From positions 1 to 52,519 of the forward strand of contig CALMDO010000219.1 in the NCBI GenBank assembly GCA_937862805.1: a DNA stretch of 52,519 nt, given 5' to 3'. The notes beneath the pieces are model-generated. The model did not search any database. It had not been told where the DNA came from and saw nothing but the letters and a program-made list of their open reading frames with translations. The position numbers and the translations under genes are program-made. The DNA comes from an uncultured Bacteroidota bacterium (lineage in GTDB: Bacteria; Bacteroidota; Bacteroidia; Bacteroidales; FEN-979). Positions within the stretch are counted from its first letter, which is position 1. Every line of letters begins with the position of its first letter. Below are positions 30,510 to 46,355 of this stretch, piece after piece.

Positions 30510-33500
30510 ATGCTTAACAAGATCATCTTCTTTTCTATCCGGAATAAACTGGTGATAGGCATGCTTACCCTCGCGATGATCGCATGGGGCATATACAATT
30601 TTATCAAACTGCCGGTTGACGCGGTACCGGATATCACGAACAACCAGGTACAGGTTATCACGATCTCACCTTCCCTGGCGCCTCAGGAGGTGGAACAGTT
30701 TATAACTTTTCCCGTTGAGGTGGCGATGGCAAACATCCAGGATGTGACCGGAATCCGTTCCATTTCAAGGTTTGGCTTATCGGTGGTGACGATAGTTTTC
30801 AAGGAAAATGTTGACATCCTGAAAGCCAGGCAGCGGGTTTCAGAGCAGATCAAGATGGCAGAGGGGCAGATCCCCGAAAACTATGGCCGGCCGGAGATGA
30901 TGCCCATCACTACAGGCCTGGGAGAGATCTATCAGTACGTCCTGGAACCCCGAAAAGAATATGAAAAGGTTTACAGCCTGTACGATTTGAGGACCATTCA
31001 GGACTGGATCGTGAAAAGACAGTTGGCAGGGATCCCGGGGATCGTAGACATCAGCACTTTTGGCGGTTGGCTCAAGCAATACGAGGTTGCTGTAAACCCT
31101 GACAAACTCGCCGGGATGAACATCTCCATCTCTGAAATCTTCGAGGCACTTCAGAAAAACAACCAGAACTCAGGCGGCAGTTATATTGAAAAATGGCAAA
31201 ATGCCTGGTATATCCGTACCGAAGGGATTGTAAAAAGCACGGAGGATATAGAAAATATCGTCGTTAAGAAGATCAACGGGATCCCGGTGACCATCCGCGA
31301 TATTGCCGTGGTAAAGATTGGTAAGGCTCCCCGTTTCGGAGCCATGACCAAGGACGGGAAAGGGGAAGCAGTGGGAGGCATCACCCTCATGCTCAAAGGG
31401 GATAACAGCAGCAAAGTGATAGAAAGGGTCAAAGAGAGGATTGGACACATCCAAAAAATTCTGCCCCCGGGATTAGAAATCAAACCTTACCTCGACCGGT
31501 CAGCCCTGATAAAAAAGACGATCCGGACCGTTACCAAAAACCTGATTGAAGGGGGGCTCATTGTGATCTTTGTGCTGGTTCTCCTTTTAGGAAACTTCCG
31601 GTCAGGATTGATCGTGGCTTCAGTGATTCCCCTTTCGATGCTCTTCGCCATCTCCATGATGAATGTTTTTGGGGTCTCAGCCAACCTGATGAGCCTTGGT
31701 GCCATTGACTTTGGCCTGATCGTTGACGGTTCCGTCATCATCGTGGAGGGGATCATCCATCACCTCCAACGCCATTTTAACGGGAAAGAACTCTCCACGG
31801 AGGAAATGAATGCAACTGTTCATCAATCTTCCTCGAGGGTGAGTTCAGCTTCCGCTTTCGGGGTCTTCATCATCCTGATCGTTTACTTACCCATTTTTGC
31901 TTTTTCCGGGACCGAAGGGAAAATGTTCCGTCCCATGGCCCAAACGGTGAGCTTTGCCCTGATCGGTGCGCTGATCCTCTCTTTTACCTATGTTCCGATG
32001 ATCTCCTCCCTTTTCCTGAAAAGGAAAATCAGTGTCAAGAAAAACTGGTCGGACCGGTTGATGGATTTTCTTCACCATTCTCATGATAAAGCACTGAATA
32101 CCGCTCTGGCCCGACCCGGCATAGTCCTAATGACAGCGCTCGCGATCGTGATCATCAGCCTTTGGGTTCTGACCCGGATGGGGGGGGAATTTTTACCCAC
32201 TTTGGAAGAGGGTGACCTTGCCTGCCAGATGACCCTGCCTCCCGGTACCTCCCTGAGCCAAAGCCTTGCCACTACCACGGCGGTAGAAAAGATACTGACC
32301 AGCCGTTTCCCCGAAGTGATACATGTGGTATCAAAGATCGGATCGGCGGAGATACCCACCGATCCGATGGCCATCGAAGATGCCGACATCATGATCACCA
32401 TGAAACCCCATGAAGAGTGGACCTCCGCTAAAAACCGTGAGGAGATGGTCTCTAAAATGAAAAAAGCCCTGGAAACTTTACCCGGAACTTCTTTCGATTT
32501 TTCACAGCCCATACAACTCAGATTCAATGAGTTGATGACGGGTGTCAAATCGGATGTGGCAGTTAAGATTTTTGGTGAAGACCTGGATCTCCTTTTCGAA
32601 AAAGCCACTGAGGCCGCTGCCATGATTCAACGCATCCCCGGTGCCGGCGATGTAAGGGTAGAACAAATCGTAGGTCTGCCACAGTTGGTGGTACATTATC
32701 AACGCGACCGGATTGCTCAGATGGGATTGAACATCAACGACGTCAACACCATTGTCAGAACTGCCTTTGCCGGAGAATCGGCAGGGTTGGTTTTCGAGGG
32801 GGAGAAAAGGTTTGACTTGGTTGTAAGACTTAGCGAAGAGTACCGGAAAAACATCGAAGCTCTTGGGAACCTGCACATCAACAGACCCAACGAAGAACCC
32901 ATCCTGTTGAACCAGGTTGCAGCCATTGAAATGATCAGCGGCCCCATGCAAATCTCGCGGGAAGAAACGATGCGGCGCGTCACCATCGGGATCAATGTCA
33001 GAAACCGGGATGTGGAATCTTTTATTAATGAAGTCAATGCTGTTATGCAAAAAAACCTTGTGCTCCCACCGGGCTATTCGGTCGAATTCGGCGGGCAGTT
33101 TGAAAATTTGAAATCGGCCAAACAAACTTCCTTCATCGCGGTACCCATTGCCCTGGCCACCATTTTTGTATTACTGTTCTTCGCTTTTGGCTCTGTGAGG
33201 CAATCCGTGATGATCTTTACTGCCATTCCCCTGGCAGCAGTTGGAGGTATCTGGGCTTTACTTCTGCGGGGTATGCCTTTTAGCATCTCAGCCGGGGTCG
33301 GTTTCATTGCCCTCTTTGGAATCGCCGTCCTTAACGGGATCGTACTGATCTCCCATTATAACCATCTGGAAAAAGAGGGCCTTTCTGATATCCTCGCACG
33401 AATCCGGCTGGGAACCTCCGACCGGCTGCGTCCTGTGATAATGACATCCCTGGTGGCCGCCATGGGATTCGTGCCGATGGCCCTGTCGACTGCTGCCGGT

Positions 33501-34862
33501 GCGGAGGTTCAGAAGCCGCTGGCTACCGTTGTGATCGGTGGCATTCTCACCTCTTCTTTCCTGACCCTTGTGGTGCTCCCGGTACTTTACCTCACTTTCA
33601 ATGAAGGCGGGGTCAGTTTTCTGAGGAAATGGCTAAAGAAAGGCAGGAAAACTGCGGGTATGATAACGATTGTTCTCTTCGCCCTGCTCTTTCCTTCTTC
33701 GCTGTTTTCGCAGGAACCTGATAAAGTGACACCCCTCACCATCGACCAGGCAGTGGAACAGGCTTTGAAAAACAACATCCAGGTAACCAATTTTGAACTG
33801 GCGAAAAAGGCTGAAAAAAAATTGATCCAATCGGCCGTCGACCTCGATGCCCCTTCTGCCCTGGTCGAAACCGGTCAGATCAACGGAACGGATAACGATG
33901 TGAAAGTCACACTGATGCAAACTTTCAAGTTTCCCGTGGTTTATGCCGAACAGGTTGCCGCCCAGAAAAAAAAGCATGCAGCCGTCTCTGTATTGTCGGG
34001 CATCCAGCGTGATGAATTCATCGCCTCCGTTCAGTCCAAATACATCGATTGGGTCGTGCTGGCCTCTAAAAAAAAGATCCTTGCACGGCAGGACAGTCTC
34101 TACAGACTCTTTTATCAGGCTGCAAAAGCCGCTTTTTCTACCGGGAATACCAACCAAATCAGCCTGCTGATGGCCGAATCCAAATCAGTTAAAGCGACAC
34201 GGGACCTGGCAGATGTTCAAAGCGATTTTGATGCCGCTTCCGGGGAATTACTCCTTCTTATGGGATCCCGGCAACCCATTGTTCCACCGTCAGGTGATCC
34301 GCCCCTTCTGTCGTTCCCGCTTACCCTGAGCATTGATCCGGAAACTGCTCCGGAAACCAATTTGCTCCGGCAAAACCTGCTATTCAGAAAAGCAAACCTA
34401 AGAGTTGAATCCTGGAACACTGCTCCTGAATTTGCTTTTGGGTGGTTCACGCAGACATTTGAAGGAATCGGTTCATACACGGGATTTCAGTATGGGATCT
34501 CTGTTCCGCTCTGGTTCTGGGTCCCGGCCGGAAAGATTCAGTCGGCCCGGATCAACCGCGATATCGCACAAAATGAGCTGGATTACGGCAAATTGCGATT
34601 TCAGTCAGAGCTGTCAAACGAGAAAAAAAATCTTGCCAAATACCAGGCTGGTTTGCAATATTACCAGACCACTGCCCTTAAGAATTCCGACCTTTTAATC
34701 CGGTCGGGTGAAAAGAGCTATCAGGCTGGCGAAATTGATTATTTCGAGTATCTGACAACCCTCAGCGAGGCTTTTACCATCCGCCTCGATTATCTCTCTG
34801 TCATCAGCAATTACAACCAAACCGTCATCAGGATCAATAAAAGACTGGGTTATTCATTATGA
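30510..34862 (+). CDS. CzcA/CusA-type heavy-metal RND pump fused to a TolC-like outer membrane factor
   Basis: The 1450-residue protein joins two parts of a tripartite efflux system. Residues 1 to about 1040 are a complete HME-RND pump (FSIRNKLVIGMLTL start, LPVDAVPDITNNQVQV, twelve membrane segments). The fourth-helix motif DFGLIVDGSVIIVE (about residues 401-414) is that of CzcA/CnrA-like divalent-cation pumps (Co, Zn, Cd, Ni), not the CusA copper form. After KKGRK comes a signal-like hydrophobic stretch (about 1051-1066, ending LFSQEP) and then a TolC/CzcC-like helical domain (LTIDQAVEQALKNNIQ to INKRLGYSL). The hydrophobic stretch may be cleaved to release the outer-membrane part. The membrane fusion gene overlaps by 4 nt. 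Confidence 0.93.
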   Translation: MLNKIIFFSIRNKLVIGMLTLAMIAWGIYNFIKLPVDAVPDITNNQVQVITISPSLAPQEVEQFITFPVEVAMANIQDVTGIRSISRFGLSVVTIVFKENVDILKARQRVSEQIKMAEGQIPENYGRPEMMPITTGLGEIYQYVLEPRKEYEKVYSLYDLRTIQDWIVKRQLAGIPGIVDISTFGGWLKQYEVAVNPDKLAGMNISISEIFEALQKNNQNSGGSYIEKWQNAWYIRTEGIVKSTEDIENIVVKKINGIPVTIRDIAVVKIGKAPRFGAMTKDGKGEAVGGITLMLKGDNSSKVIERVKERIGHIQKILPPGLEIKPYLDRSALIKKTIRTVTKNLIEGGLIVIFVLVLLLGNFRSGLIVASVIPLSMLFAISMMNVFGVSANLMSLGAIDFGLIVDGSVIIVEGIIHHLQRHFNGKELSTEEMNATVHQSSSRVSSASAFGVFIILIVYLPIFAFSGTEGKMFRPMAQTVSFALIGALILSFTYVPMISSLFLKRKISVKKNWSDRLMDFLHHSHDKALNTALARPGIVLMTALAIVIISLWVLTRMGGEFLPTLEEGDLACQMTLPPGTSLSQSLATTTAVEKILTSRFPEVIHVVSKIGSAEIPTDPMAIEDADIMITMKPHEEWTSAKNREEMVSKMKKALETLPGTSFDFSQPIQLRFNELMTGVKSDVAVKIFGEDLDLLFEKATEAAAMIQRIPGAGDVRVEQIVGLPQLVVHYQRDRIAQMGLNINDVNTIVRTAFAGESAGLVFEGEKRFDLVVRLSEEYRKNIEALGNLHINRPNEEPILLNQVAAIEMISGPMQISREETMRRVTIGINVRNRDVESFINEVNAVMQKNLVLPPGYSVEFGGQFENLKSAKQTSFIAVPIALATIFVLLFFAFGSVRQSVMIFTAIPLAAVGGIWALLLRGMPFSISAGVGFIALFGIAVLNGIVLISHYNHLEKEGLSDILARIRLGTSDRLRPVIMTSLVAAMGFVPMALSTAAGAEVQKPLATVVIGGILTSSFLTLVVLPVLYLTFNEGGVSFLRKWLKKGRKTAGMITIVLFALLFPSSLFSQEPDKVTPLTIDQAVEQALKNNIQVTNFELAKKAEKKLIQSAVDLDAPSALVETGQINGTDNDVKVTLMQTFKFPVVYAEQVAAQKKKHAAVSVLSGIQRDEFIASVQSKYIDWVVLASKKKILARQDSLYRLFYQAAKAAFSTGNTNQISLLMAESKSVKATRDLADVQSDFDAASGELLLLMGSRQPIVPPSGDPPLLSFPLTLSIDPETAPETNLLRQNLLFRKANLRVESWNTAPEFAFGWFTQTFEGIGSYTGFQYGISVPLWFWVPAGKIQSARINRDIAQNELDYGKLRFQSELSNEKKNLAKYQAGLQYYQTTALKNSDLLIRSGEKSYQAGEIDYFEYLTTLSEAFTIRLDYLSVISNYNQTVIRINKRLGYSL

Positions 34863-37870: not shown

Positions 37871-38812
37871 ATGAAATACCGTCATGTATTCTGGGCTTTT
37901 ATCCTGATCGCCATAGGGGTACTGTTTATCCTGAACAATTTCGGGATACTGGAGTTTGGTTGGCGCGCGCTCTGGAGCTTGTGGCCCCTGATCCTGATCT
38001 TTTGGGGAATTTCCATTTTACCCATCCGCGACAGCATTAAAATTGTTTCACTCATCGCTGTTCTGGCCTTTACAGTCATCTTTTTCAACAAACTTTCCGA
38101 CCGCTCCCAATGGTGGAATTTCCGCAATTTTCATTATTACGACGGCGATTGGCACGACCGGGACGAAAACGAGGATGAGGAAAGCACCAATTCCCGCGAC
38201 CAGGAGCTGAGTGTCCCTTTCGATTCACTCATTCTTAAAGGTTCCCTGCAACTTGATGCCGCTGCTGGTAATTTCTCGATTCAGGGTTTGACTTCCGATA
38301 TGATGACGTTTAGTAAAACAGGGAATATTGGTAATTATTCCATCACGACAAACGATGTGGCAGGACGGAAAAACATCAACCTCTCTCTCGAAAAAGGGAC
38401 GATCCGCCATACTGTTTCCGAAAACCAGGTCAATATCCGACTCAACGACCGCCCCTCCTGGAACATGAACCTGGATATCGGTGCGGCTGAGATCAACATG
38501 GATCTCCGTGATTACAAGATCGATACCGCGATTATCGATGCCGGCGCATCCTCCATCCACATCAAACTGGGAACCAAAGTTCCGGTTACGGTATGGACCT
38601 TCAACGCCGGCGCTTCCTCCATTGATATCGCTATTCCTAAAGAAGCCGGATGTCAGATTAAATCCGAATCGTTCATGATCAGCAAAGAGTTTGAAGGTTT
38701 TACCAAAAAAGGAGACGGGATTTACCAGACTTATAATTTCAATTCCAGCCCCGACAAGATATACCTGAATGTCAAGACTGCCATTTCAAAAATCGAGATC
38801 AACCGCTATTAA
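37871..38812 (+). CDS. LiaI/LiaF-like membrane protein with beta-helical C-terminal domain
   Basis: The 313-residue protein starts with a DUF5668/LiaI-like membrane part of two to three helices (about 7-70, AFILIAIGVLFILNNFGILE). A strongly acidic linker (about 92-110, DGDWHDRDENEDEE) follows. The C-terminal half is made of short repeated strands, with AGASSIHIKLGTKVPV and AGASSIDIAIPKEAG as near copies, resembling the LiaF/toastrack beta-solenoid fold. It is likely an envelope-stress partner of the PspC protein. The stop overlaps the stop of the convergent hydrolase gene. Confidence 0.82.
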   Translation: MKYRHVFWAFILIAIGVLFILNNFGILEFGWRALWSLWPLILIFWGISILPIRDSIKIVSLIAVLAFTVIFFNKLSDRSQWWNFRNFHYYDGDWHDRDENEDEESTNSRDQELSVPFDSLILKGSLQLDAAAGNFSIQGLTSDMMTFSKTGNIGNYSITTNDVAGRKNINLSLEKGTIRHTVSENQVNIRLNDRPSWNMNLDIGAAEINMDLRDYKIDTAIIDAGASSIHIKLGTKVPVTVWTFNAGASSIDIAIPKEAGCQIKSESFMISKEFEGFTKKGDGIYQTYNFNSSPDKIYLNVKTAISKIEINRY

Positions 38813-39579
38813 TGACTGAGAAACAGGGCTACCCTGTCGTAAAATTCCCCGGGAGCATCCGCGTGGACCCAGTGCGAAGCATTGGCAATGGTTTCCACCC
38901 GTGCAGCGGGGAATTTCATTTGTATCTCCGGCCAATCGAGATCTGTCAGATAATCAGAAAGCCCTCCGCGTAGAAACAGCACGGGCCCCGGATAAGTCCC
39001 GGGAAAATCGACTCCTTCGGCTACAGCCGGCAGGTTAAGGTTCAATGAATTCAGGTTCAGCCGCCAATCAAGGGTTTGACGATCACGCCAGTACAAATTC
39101 TTCAACAAAAAAAGGCGCAGTTTTTCACTTGCCTCCCATGTTTTTAATTGCCGGTCAACATCACCTCTGGATCTGGCTATGGTAAGGTCAACCGCCAGCA
39201 TGGCATCCATCAGATGCTGATGTTCTCTGCCGGCGTAAGAACGTTTCAGGGCAATGTCAACCACGATCATCCGCTTTACCTTTTCCGGATTTTGCAAGGC
39301 AAACAACATGGCCGTTTTTCCTCCCATGGAGTGCCCGATCAAAATGACATCCCGCAACCCGTGGCTTTCTATCAATTCTGACAAATCATTGGCAAGTAAC
39401 TGAAAATCAAAACGATCGCTGTGTGGCGACTGGCCGTGGTTGCGAAGATCGGGTATCAATACCTGGTAATGTGTAGCCAACCGTCTTCCGAAAGTTACCC
39501 AGTTATCTGATAATCCGAAAAGTCCGTGAAGAATGATCACCGGATCTCCCGACCCCATCTGACGACAAAATAAGTCCAT
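38809..39579 (-). CDS. Alpha/beta hydrolase, YbfF-like esterase
   Basis: This 256-residue hydrolase has the oxyanion HG motif in VIILHGLFGLSDNW, the RNHGQSPHS stretch typical of YbfF-type esterases, the nucleophile elbow GHSMGGKTA (Ser84), a cap region, and the catalytic His in NASHWVHADAP near the C-terminus. It should act on acyl esters, possibly acyl-CoA, in the cytoplasm. No signal peptide is present. It is monocistronic with its own promoter. Confidence 0.9.
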   Translation of the reverse strand: MDLFCRQMGSGDPVIILHGLFGLSDNWVTFGRRLATHYQVLIPDLRNHGQSPHSDRFDFQLLANDLSELIESHGLRDVILIGHSMGGKTAMLFALQNPEKVKRMIVVDIALKRSYAGREHQHLMDAMLAVDLTIARSRGDVDRQLKTWEASEKLRLFLLKNLYWRDRQTLDWRLNLNSLNLNLPAVAEGVDFPGTYPGPVLFLRGGLSDYLTDLDWPEIQMKFPAARVETIANASHWVHADAPGEFYDRVALFLSH

Positions 39580-39634
39580 TGAAAACAGGAATTTATTAAC
39601 AAGATTTTGTTGAAAAATAATCTGACGGAAGTGT

Positions 39635-39642
39635 CAAAAATA
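39635..39642 (-). promoter_or_regulatory. -7 box upstream of the hydrolase gene
   Basis: The minus strand reads TATTTTTG, with a TTG 21 nt further upstream (plus-strand CAA at 39664-39666). The leader would be about 50 nt. In the same A/T-rich 39580-39790 gap I could not find a convincing promoter for the plus-strand kamA operon. Confidence 0.55.
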
Positions 39643-39790
39643 AATAAAATTATCACCTCTTTGCAACGTTTAATTAAGCGTCTGTTATCAAGTTTTATAA
39701 AAAAGATAAAGTATTAATTTTAAACTATTTATGAATTTTCATCAGCAGTATAGCCTGTTGGTGAAGTGTTTGTAACACCTAACCTCAACG

Positions 39791-41062
39791 ATGGATAAAT
39801 TGCCCAATGAGAATCGGGACCTCCTCGGCCCTGATCTGCCCGAAGAAGAAGAACCTCCAAGTAAACCCCACTTCATCGACGAAGTCACCCTCCTGGACGA
39901 ATATTTAAAATCGAGAAACGACCGGGAGAAGAGTACCATCAGCGAACGCTCTCTCACTTTTTTACAAACCTATTTTCCTGAAGCGACTGTCAAGGAATGG
40001 AACAGTTGGCACTGGCAAATTAAAAACAGCGCCCGTTCGATCGAACAGTTGTCGCGGTACATCCGCCTGTCGGAAAATGAAGTAAAACCAGGCGGCACCG
40101 GTACCCAATCACTGCCACTGCGGATCACTCCGTATTATATCAGCCTGCTGGATCCCGACAACCCGGAACAGGCGTTGAGAAAAAGTGTTGTTCCTGTCTT
40201 CGACGAGTTCCTGATCCACCCCGATGAAGCCACCGACCCCCTCTCGGAAGAACACGACAGCCCGGTACCCAACGTGGTTCACCGGTATCCCGACCGGGTG
40301 TTGTTTCTGGTCACCGGTTTCTGCTCCACCTATTGCCGCTATTGTACCCGTACAAGGATGGTGGCCAAAGACAAATGCCACATCGGCGTGAAAGCCTGGG
40401 AACCGGGCCTTCAGTACATTGAACAACACAAAGAGGTGCGTGATGTCCTGATTTCAGGGGGCGATCCGCTGACCATGCCCGATCTGCATGTCGAGTACCT
40501 CTTATCCCGTTTACGGAGCATCCCGCATGTAGAGATCATTCGTATCGGGACGAAAGTACCCCTGGTACTCCCGCAACGGATTACCCGCCCACTGGTAAAC
40601 ATGCTGAAAAAGTACCATCCCCTCTTTATCTCCATCCATTTTACCCACGCCGACGAAATCACACCGGAAGTCACTGAAGCCTGCGGAAAACTGGCCGACG
40701 CCGGCATCCCCTTAGGGAGCCAGACCGTCCTGCTAAAAGGGATCAACGACAACGTCGAAACGATGAAACGGCTGATGCACGCCCTTCTGCGCATCCGGGT
40801 ACGCCCCTATTACCTGTACCAGTGCGACCCCGTCGTTGGAACAAGCCATTTCAGAACATCCATCGACAAAGGGCTTGAGATCATTCACGGTTTGCGGGGT
40901 TTTACTTCCGGTTATGCCGTCCCGACCTATGTGATCGATGCTCCCGGAGGAGGAGGAAAAATTCCATTACTGCCCGGTTATACAATAGGGAGAGAAGAAG
41001 GAACGGTTCTCCTGAAAAACTATGAAGGGCGAATTTTCCGTTACCCCGATAATTCCGTTTGA
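39791..41062 (+). CDS. kamA: Lysine 2,3-aminomutase (radical SAM, PLP)
   Basis: This 423-residue enzyme should convert L-lysine to L-beta-lysine. The CxxxCxxC cluster motif is C178, C182 and C185 (CSTYCRYC). The PLP Lys is K390 in DAPGGGGK. Two substrate-side residues that bind the lysine side-chain amine in the Clostridium subterminale enzyme (Asp293 and Asp330) are conserved here as D346 (YQCD) and D383 (VID), with the same 37-residue spacing. In glutamate 2,3-aminomutase these are Lys and Asn, so lysine is the predicted substrate. It has about 60 extra N-terminal residues and a short C-terminus. It is the first of four coupled genes. Confidence 0.92.
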   Translation: MDKLPNENRDLLGPDLPEEEEPPSKPHFIDEVTLLDEYLKSRNDREKSTISERSLTFLQTYFPEATVKEWNSWHWQIKNSARSIEQLSRYIRLSENEVKPGGTGTQSLPLRITPYYISLLDPDNPEQALRKSVVPVFDEFLIHPDEATDPLSEEHDSPVPNVVHRYPDRVLFLVTGFCSTYCRYCTRTRMVAKDKCHIGVKAWEPGLQYIEQHKEVRDVLISGGDPLTMPDLHVEYLLSRLRSIPHVEIIRIGTKVPLVLPQRITRPLVNMLKKYHPLFISIHFTHADEITPEVTEACGKLADAGIPLGSQTVLLKGINDNVETMKRLMHALLRIRVRPYYLYQCDPVVGTSHFRTSIDKGLEIIHGLRGFTSGYAVPTYVIDAPGGGGKIPLLPGYTIGREEGTVLLKNYEGRIFRYPDNSV

Positions 41063-41066
41063 CTTT

Positions 41067-42065
41067 ATGATCATTGGCCTCACGTACGACCTCCGTTCAG
41101 AATACCTGAAGGAAGGTTTTTCAGAAGAAGAGACAGCCGAATTCGACAAAGAAGAGACGGTAGCAGCTCTTGAAGAGGCACTTCAAGCCAACGGCTTTTC
41201 CACCAACCGCATCGGGCATGTTCGCCAGCTTGCCGAACGGCTGACCCTGGGTCACCGCTGGGATCTTGTTTTCAATATTGCAGAAGGCATGCACGGCATC
41301 GGACGGGAAGCCCAGGTACCTGCTTTGTTGGATGCCTATCAAATACCATACACCTTCTCGGATCCGCTCGTCATGGCGCTTACCTTGCATAAAGCCATGT
41401 GCAAACAAGTGGTCAGGGATTGCGGGATCCCCACTCCCGGTTTTTTCCTGGTCAGGGATTTGAAAGATCTGCAGGCATCCAACCTCAACTTTCCGATGTT
41501 TGTCAAACCCAACGCAGAAGGTACCGGAAAAGGGATCGACAGCCGCTCCAAGGTCGATTCACCAGAAGCGCTGCTCAAAACCTGTGAATTACTTTTACCT
41601 AAATATCCCCTGGGACTGATCGTGGAGGAGTACCTTCCGGGAAGGGAATTTACGATCGCTATTGCCGGTACCGGGAAAAAGGCCCGCTCCCTGGGTGTCA
41701 TGGAGGTGATCTTCACCGAAAAAGCAGAAGCTCACGGCTATTCTTACCTGAACAAAGATGATTATTACACACGGGTGAAGTACCGGATTGTGAACGATGC
41801 ACTGGCCGAAAGATGCACCGAAGTGGCCCTGGCCTCATGGAACGCGTTAGGATGCCGGGATGCAGGAAGGGTTGACCTGCGCCTGAATGAGAAGGGCGAT
41901 CCGGGTTTTATGGAGGTCAATCCGTTGGCAGGACTGAATCCCATCCATTCCGACCTCCCCATCATTTGCCAAAAACAGGGCATCTCTTTCAACGAACTCA
42001 TCGGCATCATCATGCATTCAGCCATTGAACGCATCCCTGCCGGCCATTCATTCTCCATCCGATGA
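41067..42065 (+). CDS. ATP-grasp ligase, D-Ala-D-Ala ligase-like (first of two)
   Basis: This 332-residue carboxylate-amine ligase starts 4 nt after kamA; the frame to 41022 would overlap it. Three ATP-grasp parts are seen: an N-terminal domain with DLVFNIAEGMHGIGREAQVP, an ATP-binding domain with FPMFVKPNAEGTGKGI and VEEYLPGREFTIAI, and a C-terminal metal-site part with GRVDLRLN and FMEVNPLAGLNPIHSDLP. The usual Ddl loop HGxxGEDG is replaced by EGMHGIGREAQ, so its substrates need not be D-alanine. It probably activates a carboxyl group and couples it to an amine such as beta-lysine. This is inferred from the operon. Confidence 0.88.
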   Translation: MIIGLTYDLRSEYLKEGFSEEETAEFDKEETVAALEEALQANGFSTNRIGHVRQLAERLTLGHRWDLVFNIAEGMHGIGREAQVPALLDAYQIPYTFSDPLVMALTLHKAMCKQVVRDCGIPTPGFFLVRDLKDLQASNLNFPMFVKPNAEGTGKGIDSRSKVDSPEALLKTCELLLPKYPLGLIVEEYLPGREFTIAIAGTGKKARSLGVMEVIFTEKAEAHGYSYLNKDDYYTRVKYRIVNDALAERCTEVALASWNALGCRDAGRVDLRLNEKGDPGFMEVNPLAGLNPIHSDLPIICQKQGISFNELIGIIMHSAIERIPAGHSFSIR

Positions 42066-43066
42066 ACAACCTTGCACTGATACTTTATAACCGCCTGTCA
42101 AAAAATGCCACCGATGATGAACTGGATGTACTCGAACAGGTCAGTATCGTTACCCGTGCACTGAAAAAACTGGGATTCAGGGTCAGAACAGGGCAGGTCG
42201 ATCTGAACTTTCAGCACACGCTGAATTTTATAGTGAAAATAAATCCCGGATTGATCTTCAACCTGGTGGAATCGATCCACTGCAGGGGCGAATTTGTCTT
42301 CTTTCCTGCAGCCCTCTATCAATATCTCGAAATACCCTTTACCGGTTCTCCCCTGGTGCCACTCTTTATTGCCGCCAACAAGGTCAGGGCCAAAATCGAA
42401 TTAAAAAGACTGGGGATCCCGACTCCCGCCTGGTTTTTGACGGATGAGACAGATCAGCTGGATCCCGAAAAAAAGTACATCCTCAAACCCATTTGGGAGG
42501 AAGGTTCGGTAGGGCTTGATGAACACTCTGTCTTTCACGGAAATGACACAGACTATCTCTTGAAAGTAAAAGAGAAAAATCGTGATTTTTATTTCATTGA
42601 AGAGTTCATCGATGGCCGTGAATTCAACCTGTCGATCATTGCAGGCCCCAACGGGCCGGAAGTGCTTCCTTTTGCTGAGATGACGTTTGTCGATTTTCCC
42701 GAGGGGAAACCCAGGATCATGGGATACACCGCAAAATGGAAGGAAACCTCTTTTGAATACCTCAACACCCGTCGCACCTTTGAAATGACACAGTTCGACC
42801 AAAAAACCAAAAACCGGATGGAGCGCATCTGCAAAAAATGCTGGAACGAACTGGGATTAAAAGGTTACGTCAGATTGGATTTCAGACTTGATCATCATGG
42901 AAATCCTTACGTAATCGACATCAATGCCAACCCGTGTCTTTCCGGTTCAGGAGGCTTTATGGCGGCCTGCCGGCAAGCCGGGATGAAACCGGTTGACGCC
43001 ATCCGCAGAATTGTGGAACACGCCCTCGGACTCCCTCTTGAATCAACGAAAGCAATCAACCCATGA
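42062..43066 (+). CDS. ATP-grasp ligase, D-Ala-D-Ala ligase-like (second of two)
   Basis: This 334-residue ligase is a diverged paralog of the preceding gene, which it overlaps by 4 nt (ATGA). The matching parts are GLIFNLVESIHCRGEFVFFP, IPFTGSPLV, KYILKPIWEEGSVGLDEHS, IEEFIDGREFNLSII, and the metal-binding end YVRLDFRLDHHGNPYVIDIN followed by ANPCLSGSGG. Its substrate loop differs from both Ddl and the first ligase, so the two enzymes probably perform different couplings. Together they could make a two-bond product. A peptidoglycan role is unlikely, as no mur or ftsZ gene is nearby. Confidence 0.87.
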   Translation: MNNLALILYNRLSKNATDDELDVLEQVSIVTRALKKLGFRVRTGQVDLNFQHTLNFIVKINPGLIFNLVESIHCRGEFVFFPAALYQYLEIPFTGSPLVPLFIAANKVRAKIELKRLGIPTPAWFLTDETDQLDPEKKYILKPIWEEGSVGLDEHSVFHGNDTDYLLKVKEKNRDFYFIEEFIDGREFNLSIIAGPNGPEVLPFAEMTFVDFPEGKPRIMGYTAKWKETSFEYLNTRRTFEMTQFDQKTKNRMERICKKCWNELGLKGYVRLDFRLDHHGNPYVIDINANPCLSGSGGFMAACRQAGMKPVDAIRRIVEHALGLPLESTKAINP

Positions 43067-43554
43067 CCAACCCCATCGACATCCATTTCAGAACCGAAGT
43101 ACGGGAGGAAGACAGAGAGAACATCCGTTCAATCCTGGTTTCGACCGGTTTTTTTTATGACATCGAGATTCCGGTAGCCGTTGAGCTGGCTGAGGAACAT
43201 CTCCAATCAGGCCCTGGATGCGGATACTTTTTTATTTTTGCTGAAGTCGGGGGTAAAACGATTGCCTATGCCTGTTACGGCCCGATTCCAGGAACCGTGG
43301 GCAGCTATGATCTATATTGGATCGCGACCCATGATTCCTGCAGGGGCCAAGGAATCGGCAGTCGCCTGATCGAAGCGGTCCATGAAGCCATCGTCGCTGC
43401 AGGGGGCCGGCTGGTCATTGCCGAAACATCCACCCTGGATAAATACCGGCCTACACGCCATTTCTATGAACGGACCGGCTACTTAGCCGAAGCACGGATC
43501 GATGATTTTTACAGAAAGGGTGACGGTAAAGTGTTTTACGTAAAAAGATTTTAA
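43063..43554 (+). CDS. GNAT-family N-acetyltransferase
   Basis: This 163-residue acetyltransferase has the acetyl-CoA loop SCRGQGIGSRL (R/Q-x-x-G-x-G/A type) preceded by the strand YDLYWIATHD. Its end contains RHFYERTGYLAEARIDDFYR and the C-terminal strand KVFYVKRF. It overlaps the second ligase by 4 nt and is the last gene of the operon. In archaea and Bacillus a GNAT enzyme (AblB/YodP) acetylates beta-lysine made by the aminomutase. This one is shorter than those, but is the natural candidate to acetylate beta-lysine or the ligase product. The substrate is inferred. Confidence 0.87.
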   Translation: MTNPIDIHFRTEVREEDRENIRSILVSTGFFYDIEIPVAVELAEEHLQSGPGCGYFFIFAEVGGKTIAYACYGPIPGTVGSYDLYWIATHDSCRGQGIGSRLIEAVHEAIVAAGGRLVIAETSTLDKYRPTRHFYERTGYLAEARIDDFYRKGDGKVFYVKRF

Positions 43555-43571: not shown

Positions 43572-44390
43572 TCAACAGTAAAGCGCTTTCAGTCTCCCGA
43601 TAAGCTCGGGAGTCAGTTTTTCCTGCTTCCGGATATCTTCAAATTTGTTTAGAAAGTCATCGATCGTCAGTTTCTTTTTCTCTTCTGAAGAGATATCATC
43701 GATAATCCTGCCGTGATGCATCATGATCGTCCGGTTACCCAGTTCCAGCGCCTGGTTCATCGAATGGGTCACCATAATGGCCGTCAGATGATGTTCTTCG
43801 ACGAATTTGCGGGTCAGCCGGATCACCTGGGCTGCTGTTTTTGGGTCCAATGCAGCAGTATGTTCATCCAGAAGCAGGACATCCGGGGTTTGGAGGACTG
43901 CCATCAATAAGGTGACGGCCTGTCGTTGCCCGCCGGACAGGGTACCCATCACGTTTTCAAGCCTCTTCTCAAGATCCATATCCAGGGATGCCAATTGATC
44001 ACGGAAAAATGATTTTATTTTCCGGTTCAGGCTGAGCAGAGGCCACCTGTGTTTTCCCCGTAACCATGCCATCAGGAGGTTTTCTGCAATGGTCATATCG
44101 GGAGCAGTCCCCTGGAAAGGATTTTGAAAAACCCGTGCGATGTACTTCGCGCGTTTAAAATCGGGATGCCGGGTGACCTCTTTCCCTTTGATCCGGATGA
44201 TGCCTTTATCGGGAATAATGTTTCCGGCAATGACATTGAGGAGGGTCGATTTGCCGGAACCATTCGTACCTATCACCGTTAAAAAATCGTGTTCCCTGAT
44301 TTCCAGACAAACATCATCCAAGGCAAGTACTTCATCAAGGGAACCCGCATTGAAAAGTTTGGTAAGTCCTGCTATTTCGATCATGGTCAT
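43572..44390 (-). CDS. ABC transporter ATP-binding protein (TrpZ-like)
   Basis: This 272-residue ATPase carries Walker A GTNGSGKST, the Q-loop region VFQNPFQGTAPDM, signature LSGGQRQAV, Walker B DVLLLDEHTAALD and H-loop MVTHSMNQAL. It has the arrangement of ATPases that serve branched-chain-type permeases, as in the TrpXYZ group. It is the last gene of a five-gene minus-strand cluster, 9 nt after the permease/binding-protein fusion gene, and should energise it. The substrate is unknown. Confidence 0.9.
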   Translation of the reverse strand: MTMIEIAGLTKLFNAGSLDEVLALDDVCLEIREHDFLTVIGTNGSGKSTLLNVIAGNIIPDKGIIRIKGKEVTRHPDFKRAKYIARVFQNPFQGTAPDMTIAENLLMAWLRGKHRWPLLSLNRKIKSFFRDQLASLDMDLEKRLENVMGTLSGGQRQAVTLLMAVLQTPDVLLLDEHTAALDPKTAAQVIRLTRKFVEEHHLTAIMVTHSMNQALELGNRTIMMHHGRIIDDISSEEKKKLTIDDFLNKFEDIRKQEKLTPELIGRLKALYC

Positions 44391-44399
44391 TCTCCCGGT

Positions 44400-46355
44400 T
44401 TAGTGTGTTTTTGTCTGAATTTCACGATCTTCGGGCAAAACCAGCGGCTGCTTGTTCAACTTATTGTGAATGAAAGTGATGGTGGCTGCCTTTCGGATGG
44501 AATCAGGAAAGATGACCCCCAATTGATCGGCCATATCATAATTGATCCCGAAGGAGGTGATTTTGAACCGTTCAAACGGGATTTTACCAGGATTTTCTCC
44601 TTTCAGTACCCGGTCAACCAGATGGGCAGCCTGCATACCACTCACATAATATTCATACCCGTATACCAACAAGACTCCGTCCTGAAGTCTTTCGGCATCG
44701 TTGCTGTATACCGGGATTTTCTGGGCACGGGATACCCGGATAACTGACTCGAGAGCGTTGAAAACCGTCAGGTCATTGATCAGGATAAAGGCGCTGATCC
44801 CTTTGGCAGCTAATGATTGTGCAGCCTGGTAAACTTCACTGGTCCCGGAAACCGAAACCTCTGACAGTTCCAACTGAGGATAAGATTTTAAGGCTTTGTG
44901 CAAATCGGCTAAATTAACCTTTGTATTAGGAAAGGCAGGATTGTACAGGGTACCTATCTTTTGTTTCCCGTGTTTCATCATCGTGAACAATTTCAGCAGC
45001 TCGTAGCTGGGAGCCGATCCGTAAACCCCCGTGACATTGGGAAGATGGTTGGAATCGCTGAAGCCTGCCTGGATGGAAAAAGGGTTGGCCACTGTCGCAA
45101 AAACAACCGGTATCTCTTTTACCTTGGTAATGGCAGCCTGTGTTGATGCAGTGGAAACCGGCACCAGGACATCGACACCGGCTGATACAAGGTGATCAAC
45201 CATGGTCCGGTTCATCGGGATATCCCCTTCTGCATTGAGTTCTATGATCTCACAGTTTTCCCCGGGCCGATAATCAAGTTTTCTCAATTCATCATAGAAA
45301 CCATTGCGTGTATTGGTCATTAACGAACTCTGGTTAGCCAGCAGAAGTCCTATCCTGGGTCGATGAGCATCATTTTCTTTCTTCGGCCTGTTCTTCACAA
45401 CAAAGAAAACGAACAGAAGAACAAAGAGTATAAGAAACGACCATCGGAAGATCCGGGCATGATGATGGAACATTCGCGTGAATCTTCCCTCATGCTTTTT
45501 TCTGAAGAACTGCGTGGTGATCAGGGTGGCCAGTACAAAGAGTGCGGTGAGTATCTTCAGATCGTTAGGGTTCATTCCCAGGTAAAGTGCCAGCGCTACG
45601 GCCAGGCGAAAGATCACCGATCCCAGGATCACCCCCAGCACCTGGATAAAGATCGACCGGCTATGGAGTATTGCTTCTCCGATGATGACGGAAGCCAGGC
45701 TGAAGATAATGGAACCAATCCCCATCCCGATATCTGCAAATCCCTGGTATTGAGCAATAAGTGCTCCCGAAATACCCACCAAACCATTGGCCAGCGAAAT
45801 TCCGAAGATTTTATTGCGAACAACGGAGACTCCTTGTGCGGCGATCATGACCGGATTGTTACCGGTCGATCGCATGGTCAGACCAAAATCTGTTCGGAGA
45901 AAAAGTGAAACCACCATCCAGAAGAGTACGATCGTCGTGATGAGCACCAGGAAATTCCAGAATTCAGGGTTCAGGCCGGGGTTATAAAAAGCCAGAAGGC
46001 TGACGAAAGTAGGGTCATTGAGCAGCGGGATGTTCGATTTCCCCATGATGTGGAGGTTTACGGAATAGAGACCTGTCATCACCAGGATACCTGCCAACAA
46101 TCCTTCGATCCTGAAACGTGTGTGGATGAATCCGGTGATGAAACCTGCCAAAGAGCCAACCAGGAAGGCTACCGGAAGCACCGTCAGGGGATTCCATCCG
46201 TTGACAATCAGGATGGAGGCCGTAGCAGCCCCTGTGGTGAAAGTTCCGTCGATGGTGATGTCGGGAAAGGAGTACAGCTTATAGGTAATATAAGTCCCTA
46301 TTGCCATGAAGGCATAAAGGAAACCAAGGTTGACCGCGCCTATCCAAAGCTCCAT
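44400..46355 (-). CDS. ABC permease fused to its substrate-binding domain (TrpY-TrpX-like)
   Basis: The 651-residue protein has an N-terminal permease domain of the branched-chain amino acid type (about 1-283, many helices, with FPDITIDGTFTTGAATASIL and GLTMRSTGNNPVMIAAQGV), a basic and His-rich linker (RFTRMFHHHARIFR), and one more membrane segment (about 304-320). The C-terminal half is a periplasmic-binding domain of the ABC_sub_bind type (about 333-640, with PRIGLLLANQSS, GVDVLVPVSTASTQAA, VFATVANPF, VTGVYGSAPSYELLKLF). In TrpXYZ systems permease and binding protein are separate genes, so here the binding protein is tethered. It overlaps the STAS gene by 1 nt. Substrate unknown. Confidence 0.88.
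   Translation of the reverse strand: MELWIGAVNLGFLYAFMAIGTYITYKLYSFPDITIDGTFTTGAATASILIVNGWNPLTVLPVAFLVGSLAGFITGFIHTRFRIEGLLAGILVMTGLYSVNLHIMGKSNIPLLNDPTFVSLLAFYNPGLNPEFWNFLVLITTIVLFWMVVSLFLRTDFGLTMRSTGNNPVMIAAQGVSVVRNKIFGISLANGLVGISGALIAQYQGFADIGMGIGSIIFSLASVIIGEAILHSRSIFIQVLGVILGSVIFRLAVALALYLGMNPNDLKILTALFVLATLITTQFFRKKHEGRFTRMFHHHARIFRWSFLILFVLLFVFFVVKNRPKKENDAHRPRIGLLLANQSSLMTNTRNGFYDELRKLDYRPGENCEIIELNAEGDIPMNRTMVDHLVSAGVDVLVPVSTASTQAAITKVKEIPVVFATVANPFSIQAGFSDSNHLPNVTGVYGSAPSYELLKLFTMMKHGKQKIGTLYNPAFPNTKVNLADLHKALKSYPQLELSEVSVSGTSEVYQAAQSLAAKGISAFILINDLTVFNALESVIRVSRAQKIPVYSNDAERLQDGVLLVYGYEYYVSGMQAAHLVDRVLKGENPGKIPFERFKITSFGINYDMADQLGVIFPDSIRKAATITFIHNKLNKQPLVLPEDREIQTKTH

Follow-up and report, generated by a model that had tools for sequence, protein, structure and literature searches.

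A conserved operon of a lysine 2,3-aminomutase, two Ddl-like ATP-grasp ligases and an acetyltransferase is a candidate pathway to acetylated beta-lysine peptides

Among the closest described systems to the one studied here is the AblA-AblB operon, whose expression is salt dependent in Methanosarcina mazei; the same source names an acetylated neutral glutamine dipeptide as a known osmolyte (accessible text of PMC1224877). In Dehalobacter, tandem Na+ and c-di-AMP riboswitches, tested in vitro, precede ablA (accessible text of PMC9337991), and Pelobacter carbinolicus has been proposed to use AblA-AblB (accessible text of PMC3543383). Here, we analysed a stretch of 52,519 nucleotides from an uncultured Bacteroidota bacterium (contig CALMDO010000219.1; hereafter the window), which carries at 39791-43554 the genes of a lysine 2,3-aminomutase (KamA), two ATP-grasp ligases resembling D-alanine-D-alanine ligase (Ddl), designated LigA and LigB, and an N-acetyltransferase (GNAT). 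We give an even chance to the reading that the four genes form one pathway, in which lysine would be converted to beta-lysine, joined into a small peptide by ATP-grasp ligation and acetylated to yield an intracellular solute.

The initial annotation of the window had described this four-gene layout, and the strand, the gap, the overlaps and the Pfam identities were all borne out. A gap of 4 nt separates kamA from LigA, and the LigA/LigB and LigB/GNAT junctions are 4-nt ATGA overlaps. Since the flanking genes lie on the opposite strand, kamA-LigA-LigB-GNAT was considered one unit. An alternative in-frame ATG of LigA is located at 41022, within kamA; aligned relatives begin at the equivalent of 41067.

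Related loci were taken as the best 80 of at least 563 LigB relatives found in a contig scan, and their gene content was determined by profile searches. All four genes were identified in the order KamA-LigA-LigB-GNAT in 65 of the 80 loci, 55 of which were plain and 10 of which had an inserted GNAT-amidohydrolase gene, and this arrangement is far beyond chance. Conservation of the gene order, which the initial annotation had singled out as informative, thus held. The set was incomplete in 15 loci, 12 of them truncated by the contig end. According to the record titles, which can be wrong for metagenome-assembled genomes, the 80 loci are mostly from Bacteroidetes, and also from Ignavibacteria, Deltaproteobacteria, Neomarinimicrobiota (L119, a record that ends before GNAT) and CSSED10-310. 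L100, an Ancylomarina sp. record that carries the operon, is not titled as such a genome. Every one of the 37 genomes searched from the window's family, the window's genome among them, gave a strong LigB match. So did 3 of 24 additional genomes from the order; in the rest of these 24, matches were weak or absent. Other genes recur around the module in at most 28 of the 80 loci and, as far as seen, represent synteny of the window's relatives. The initial annotation had held that mur/fts neighbours would speak against a dedicated pathway, and none were recognised among the window neighbours by Pfam/NCBIfam or, by eye, at the other loci inspected.

Co-occurrence was then assessed in a phylum sample of 296 genomes, searched separately for each protein at thresholds that differ (LigB, E<=1e-40; GNAT, 1e-20; KamA, 1e-90). 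LigB was matched in 54 genomes, GNAT in 55 and KamA in 94, and all three were matched in 52 (LigB versus GNAT, Fisher p ~1e-51, uncorrected for shared ancestry). LigB occurred without GNAT in G107, where the contig ends inside LigB, and in G216, which has a lone third paralogue, both also being without KamA; GNAT occurred without LigB only in G148, G314 and G343, and KamA alone was found in 41 genomes. A same-strand cluster of LigB, GNAT and KamA was present in 43 of these 52 genomes; its order is LigB-GNAT-KamA in 42, and the window has the arrangement described above. In the other nine, the same three genes are scattered yet all present, and LigA was confirmed in both scattered genomes opened for it (L144 and L146). 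Because the set is retained without linkage, this is strong evidence for a single pathway. The proposal of the initial annotation, a pathway dedicated to beta-lysine in which two Ddl-like ligases and an acetyltransferase take part, is supported by this co-occurrence of KamA, LigB and GNAT even when unlinked, and by the KamA residues.

KamA has L-lysine 2,3-aminomutase 2a5h as its closest and sole solved relative found (E 3.8e-129), and it passed the family model TIGR00238 (372 bits versus a cut-off of 199). Residues C178/C182/C185, R187, D346, D383 and K390 are invariant in 14 aligned sequences, which include the window KamA and the AblA-type KamA of L190, and alignment to 2a5h showed that the three cysteines of the cluster are retained, as are the positions of R134, D293, D330 and K337. 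We take these residues to comprise the CxxxCxxC cluster, the pyridoxal phosphate lysine and two aspartates binding the lysine side chain; a literature search for printed residue roles returned nothing relevant. Since the lysine-type residues are retained, the substrate points to lysine and not glutamate, and the prediction that KamA forms beta-lysine is a strong one. In a quick tree of 66 KamAs, type I, to which the window belongs, formed one clade with 25 of its 26 rows (Shimodaira-Hasegawa-like approximate likelihood ratio test, SH-aLRT, 99; the long row L178 fell outside), and AblA formed a separate clade (SH-aLRT 100).

We considered whether KamA might instead supply beta-lysine for modification of a protein such as elongation factor P (EF-P), with an ATP-grasp enzyme in place of EpmA, given that EpmB is a KamA relative and that EpmA scored below the cut-off in the window's genome (227.9 versus 286.9). 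However, the window KamA is far under the EpmB equivalog cut-off (259 versus 369), Ddl-type ligases generally act on small molecules, and EpmA was above the cut-off in just 2 of 14 control genomes, so that its absence means little. This explanation is extremely improbable and was set aside. At a further locus (L223, 4493-5770), KamA lies between an amidinotransferase-like gene and very large genes resembling nonribosomal peptide synthetases (NRPS; names by eye), outside types I and II; this locus is a different beta-amino acid pathway.

The residue positions of the two ligases were assigned by profile alignments to the genuine Ddl encoded elsewhere in the genome (L003), which was itself aligned to E. 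coli DdlB. LigA was below the cut-off in all 25 NCBIfam models shown (of 34; best 149 versus 243), and LigB in all 17 models matched (best 94 versus 243). The Ddl His63 position is Glu73 in LigA, invariant in 45 type I sequences with the window included and in a set of 16 LigA sequences that spans both types. In LigB it is Glu70, and E70, K225, W226 and C292 are invariant in 50 type I sequences, the window included. LigB carries Lys225-Trp226 in place of Ddl Lys215-Tyr216 and an NxNPC motif, and has lost the Ser281 position. The window LigA retains the positions of Ddl Arg255, Asp257, Glu270, Asn272 and Ser281, and that of Arg255 is invariant across the LigA alignment of types I and II. In Ddl, the acceptor carboxylate is held by Ser281 and Arg255. 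Because the window LigA keeps both positions, it would join its substrate to an amino acid acceptor, and because the acceptor region of LigB is changed, LigB would have a different acceptor. We predict with moderate confidence that LigA ligates beta-lysine, and with less confidence that LigB extends the product.

Membership of LigA and LigB in the Ddl superfamily raises the possibility that they serve the cell wall as alternative D-Ala-D-Ala or depsipeptide ligases, and the LigA-LigB fusion proteins of two genomes just pass the Ddl model NF002378 when their halves are summed (244 and 276 versus 243). Against this, the window pair and the type II pair of L136 are both under the cut-offs of all Ddl models shown, whereas the L003 Ddl passes four models (332.5 versus 310), and the His63 of the D-Ala site is replaced by Glu in both LigA and LigB. 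We judged such a role very unlikely and did not retain it.

Two further groups of LigB-like genes were observed. A plasmid search with LigB gave 60 records, all below 60% identity; among the 10 matches listed, seven were named ATP-grasp proteins, two were named Ddl and one was unannotated, and the seven ATP-grasp genes, on rhizobial plasmids, are ~24-28% identical to LigB. At L138, L142 and L230, a lone third LigB-like paralogue is accompanied by a divergent gene that contains the motif YPQP..(Y/W)xCGPFALK, and possibly belongs to another ligase system.

The module also occurs in variant forms. In another branch, the genes follow the type II order LigA-LigB-GNAT-KamA, as in L136, L148 and L205. 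Type III, in which LigA adjoins KamA without LigB, was seen at 18 of 35 KamA loci; these were opened among the 42 genomes of the sample in which KamA was matched and LigB was not. LigA is therefore most closely tied to beta-lysine. Natural LigA-LigB fusions were identified in two genomes (L174, LigA 1-325 and LigB 371-693; L175, 66-390 and 425-745), which suggests that the two ligase steps are consecutive.

For the acetyltransferase, the closest PDB entry is 2r7h (E 8.2e-43), described as a 'putative D-alanine N-acetyltransferase' and presumably from Desulfovibrio. We have moderate confidence in the prediction that GNAT acetylates the pathway product. In 15 of the 80 loci, one gene encodes a GNAT domain and a histone-deacetylase-family domain in a single fused protein (domains assigned by Pfam in two examples), and no NCBIfam model names such a fusion. 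Acetylpolyamine amidohydrolases are the nearest relatives of its amidohydrolase half (9gkz, E 4e-76). This resemblance favours a polyamine-like role, in which acetylation and deacetylation would tune the charge of a beta-lysine oligomer binding nucleic acid, membrane or cell surface. However, the fused enzyme is confined to those 15 of the 80 loci, a search of the window's genome, which had no positive control, did not detect it, and we consider this role quite unlikely. When the fused gene was used as a query in the 296 phylum genomes, 28 were matched by the deacetylase half only, which is hence uninformative on linkage.

The pairing of a lysine aminomutase with a GNAT in a single operon, known from methanogens (accessible text of PMC1224877), could also mean that the operon makes plain N-epsilon-acetyl-beta-lysine, with KamA and GNAT replacing AblA-AblB and the ligases acting elsewhere. 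However, an NCBIfam scan gave no match of the window GNAT to the AblB model TIGR03827, and KamA did not reach the AblA equivalog (474 bits versus 525), its match ending at model position 360 of 417, so that it lacks the last part of that model. True AblA and AblB of the same phylum pass easily (L220, 781 and 327; L222, 769 and 290; cut-offs 525 and 205). Moreover, the module and ablA-ablB stand side by side in two genomes: L190 and L191, both from the genome sample of the Neomarinimicrobiota record's phylum, carry KamA-LigA-LigB-GNAT followed by AblA and AblB on the same strand, and the AblA and AblB scores are all above cut-off (785.6 and 329 in L190; 781.3 and 315.9 in L191). The GNAT-AblA gap of L190 is 166 nt, and it is possible that the module and ablA-ablB share one transcript there. 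As the module has its own aminomutase beside ablA-ablB, its product would be other than N-epsilon-acetyl-beta-lysine. The scarcity of GNAT without LigB (just 3 of 296 genomes, weak matches) and the type III loci, where LigA keeps to KamA, also argue against this explanation. We regard it as unlikely and set it aside, and the AblA and AblB results give no support to the simple methanogen-type route mentioned in the initial annotation. At L220 and L221, a sodium-solute symporter-like gene (by eye) directly follows the AblA-type kamA, and in L220 ablB comes next.

From the gene set, its order, its co-occurrence, the fusions and the residues, we infer how the proposed pathway would work, which amino acids it would join and what it would be for. 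KamA would convert L-lysine to L-beta-lysine. LigA would then activate a carboxylate with ATP as an acyl phosphate, and an amide bond would be formed between beta-lysine and an amino acid. Right after LigA, a second unit would be added by LigB, whose site no longer looks D-alanine-like, and GNAT would acetylate one free amine, so that the finished small peptide would carry little charge. The fused GNAT/acetylpolyamine-amidohydrolase of some relatives could both put on and take off an acetyl group. The product would most likely remain intracellular and act as a compatible solute or a similar stress metabolite; this solute role is plausible and is proposed with weak to moderate confidence. The wider proposal, that a widespread and so far undescribed class of acetylated beta-lysine oligopeptides, made by paired Ddl-like ligases and rendered reversible in some lineages by the GNAT/acetylpolyamine-amidohydrolase fusion, is a core intracellular solute of many bacteria in several phyla, is tentative and falls somewhat short of an even chance.

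The product might instead be exported as an antimetabolite, a signal or a metal ligand, like the streptothricin class. Peptide antibiotics are known to contain beta-lysine as a building block, and ATP-grasp ligases make small secreted peptides. Nevertheless, the neighbours recurring in at least 5 of the 80 loci, judged by eye, include no recognisable exporter, resistance gene or NRPS, and two of them, an ABC ATPase (12/80) and a permease/substrate-binding fusion (9/80), look like importers; a substrate-binding lipoprotein (11/80) and a response regulator (19/80), also named by eye, recur as well. The presence of LigB throughout the family genomes searched looks like core physiology, and the sole NRPS-linked KamA seen, that of L223, lies outside types I and II. 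Export is improbable in our view, and an NRPS antibiotic was set aside; the idea of a secreted metabolite in the initial annotation finds no exporter to lean on among these neighbours.

Several observations weigh against the four-gene solute pathway. The fusions of L174 and L175 have no KamA on their short stretches, and L174 also shows no GNAT; LigA-LigB-GNAT occurs without KamA on the stretch at L173, L187 and L201. With the contig continuing, L070 is without KamA and L108 and L118 are without GNAT, as confirmed by tblastn. Type I LigA retains Ser281, but just one of six type II LigAs has a Ser there, and the ligase substrates are predicted from residues. A role in salt stress fits poorly with the isolate names of several relatives, which we take to refer to freshwater lakes, and with the Rfam search, which at the gathering threshold returned no match for either the window or 10 related loci.

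Coordinates of the four module genes and their immediate neighbours in the window
Feature	Position	Strand	Pfam
kamA, lysine 2,3-aminomutase-type radical SAM/PLP enzyme, 423 aa	39791-41062	+	Radical_SAM + LAM_C
LigA, Ddl-like ATP-grasp ligase 1, 332 aa	41067-42065	+	Dala_Dala_lig_C, 89 bits
LigB, Ddl-like ATP-grasp ligase 2, 334 aa	42062-43066	+	Dala_Dala_lig_C, 57 bits, + ATP-grasp_3
GNAT N-acetyltransferase, not AblB, 163 aa	43063-43554	+	Acetyltransf_1/7
alpha/beta hydrolase, neighbour before kamA	38809-39579	-	
ABC ATPase, neighbour after GNAT	43572-44390	-	

A lysine fermentation (Kam) operon was set aside, as no kamD, kamE or kdd is an immediate neighbour in the window, where the hydrolase and the ABC transporter are found instead; the check for the three genes extended to these neighbours, not to the remainder of the genome. 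A block at 39600-39670, in the interval that separates kamA from the divergent hydrolase gene, is well conserved in near relatives and may hold divergent promoters. Adjoining the ABC ATPase, its partner gene (44400-46355, -, 651 aa) encodes an ABC permease (BPD_transp_2) fused to a substrate-binding domain (ABC_sub_bind) that is TrpX-like but under the TrpX model cut-off. Elsewhere in the window, a single chain of 1450 aa (30510-34862, +) combines an RND pump (ACR_tran, 6-1030) with an outer-membrane efflux domain (OEP).

If the proposed pathway is correct, it would add a peptide branch to beta-amino-acid solute chemistry and give a function to a large gene family of at least 563 LigB relatives. 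It would also provide two families of ligases with substrates open to immediate assay, and hint at the means by which many uncultured bacteria withstand osmotic or other stress. Among the titles and abstracts listed in our literature searches, in which most subscription journals were not represented, none connects a lysine aminomutase with Ddl-like ligases.

Compared with known systems, the module resembles the AblA-AblB operon in combining a lysine 2,3-aminomutase with a GNAT, but differs in its two extra Ddl-like ligases, a GNAT that is not AblB and a KamA in a separate clade. N-acetylglutaminylglutamine amide (NAGGN) is made by ATP-grasp and GNAT activities, and its pathway is not known to include an aminomutase. 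No model for the NAGGN synthetase or amidotransferase was seen in the part of the NCBIfam results listed for the window proteins (25 of 34 models for LigA). The likeness to NAGGN would lie in the product, a small neutral acetylated peptide solute (accessible text of PMC1224877). Among single enzymes, 2r7h is the nearest solved relative of the window GNAT by sequence and carries a putative annotation only, and the acetylpolyamine amidohydrolases are the closest solved relatives of the fused gene, which differs from them by an added GNAT domain and is absent from the window. The window ligases share the superfamily and the ATP-grasp motifs with Ddl but differ in model scores that are too low, in the exchange of His63 for Glu in both and in the rewritten acceptor region of LigB. 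What appears to be new is therefore the paired-ligase step within a known kind of beta-lysine small-molecule biosynthesis.

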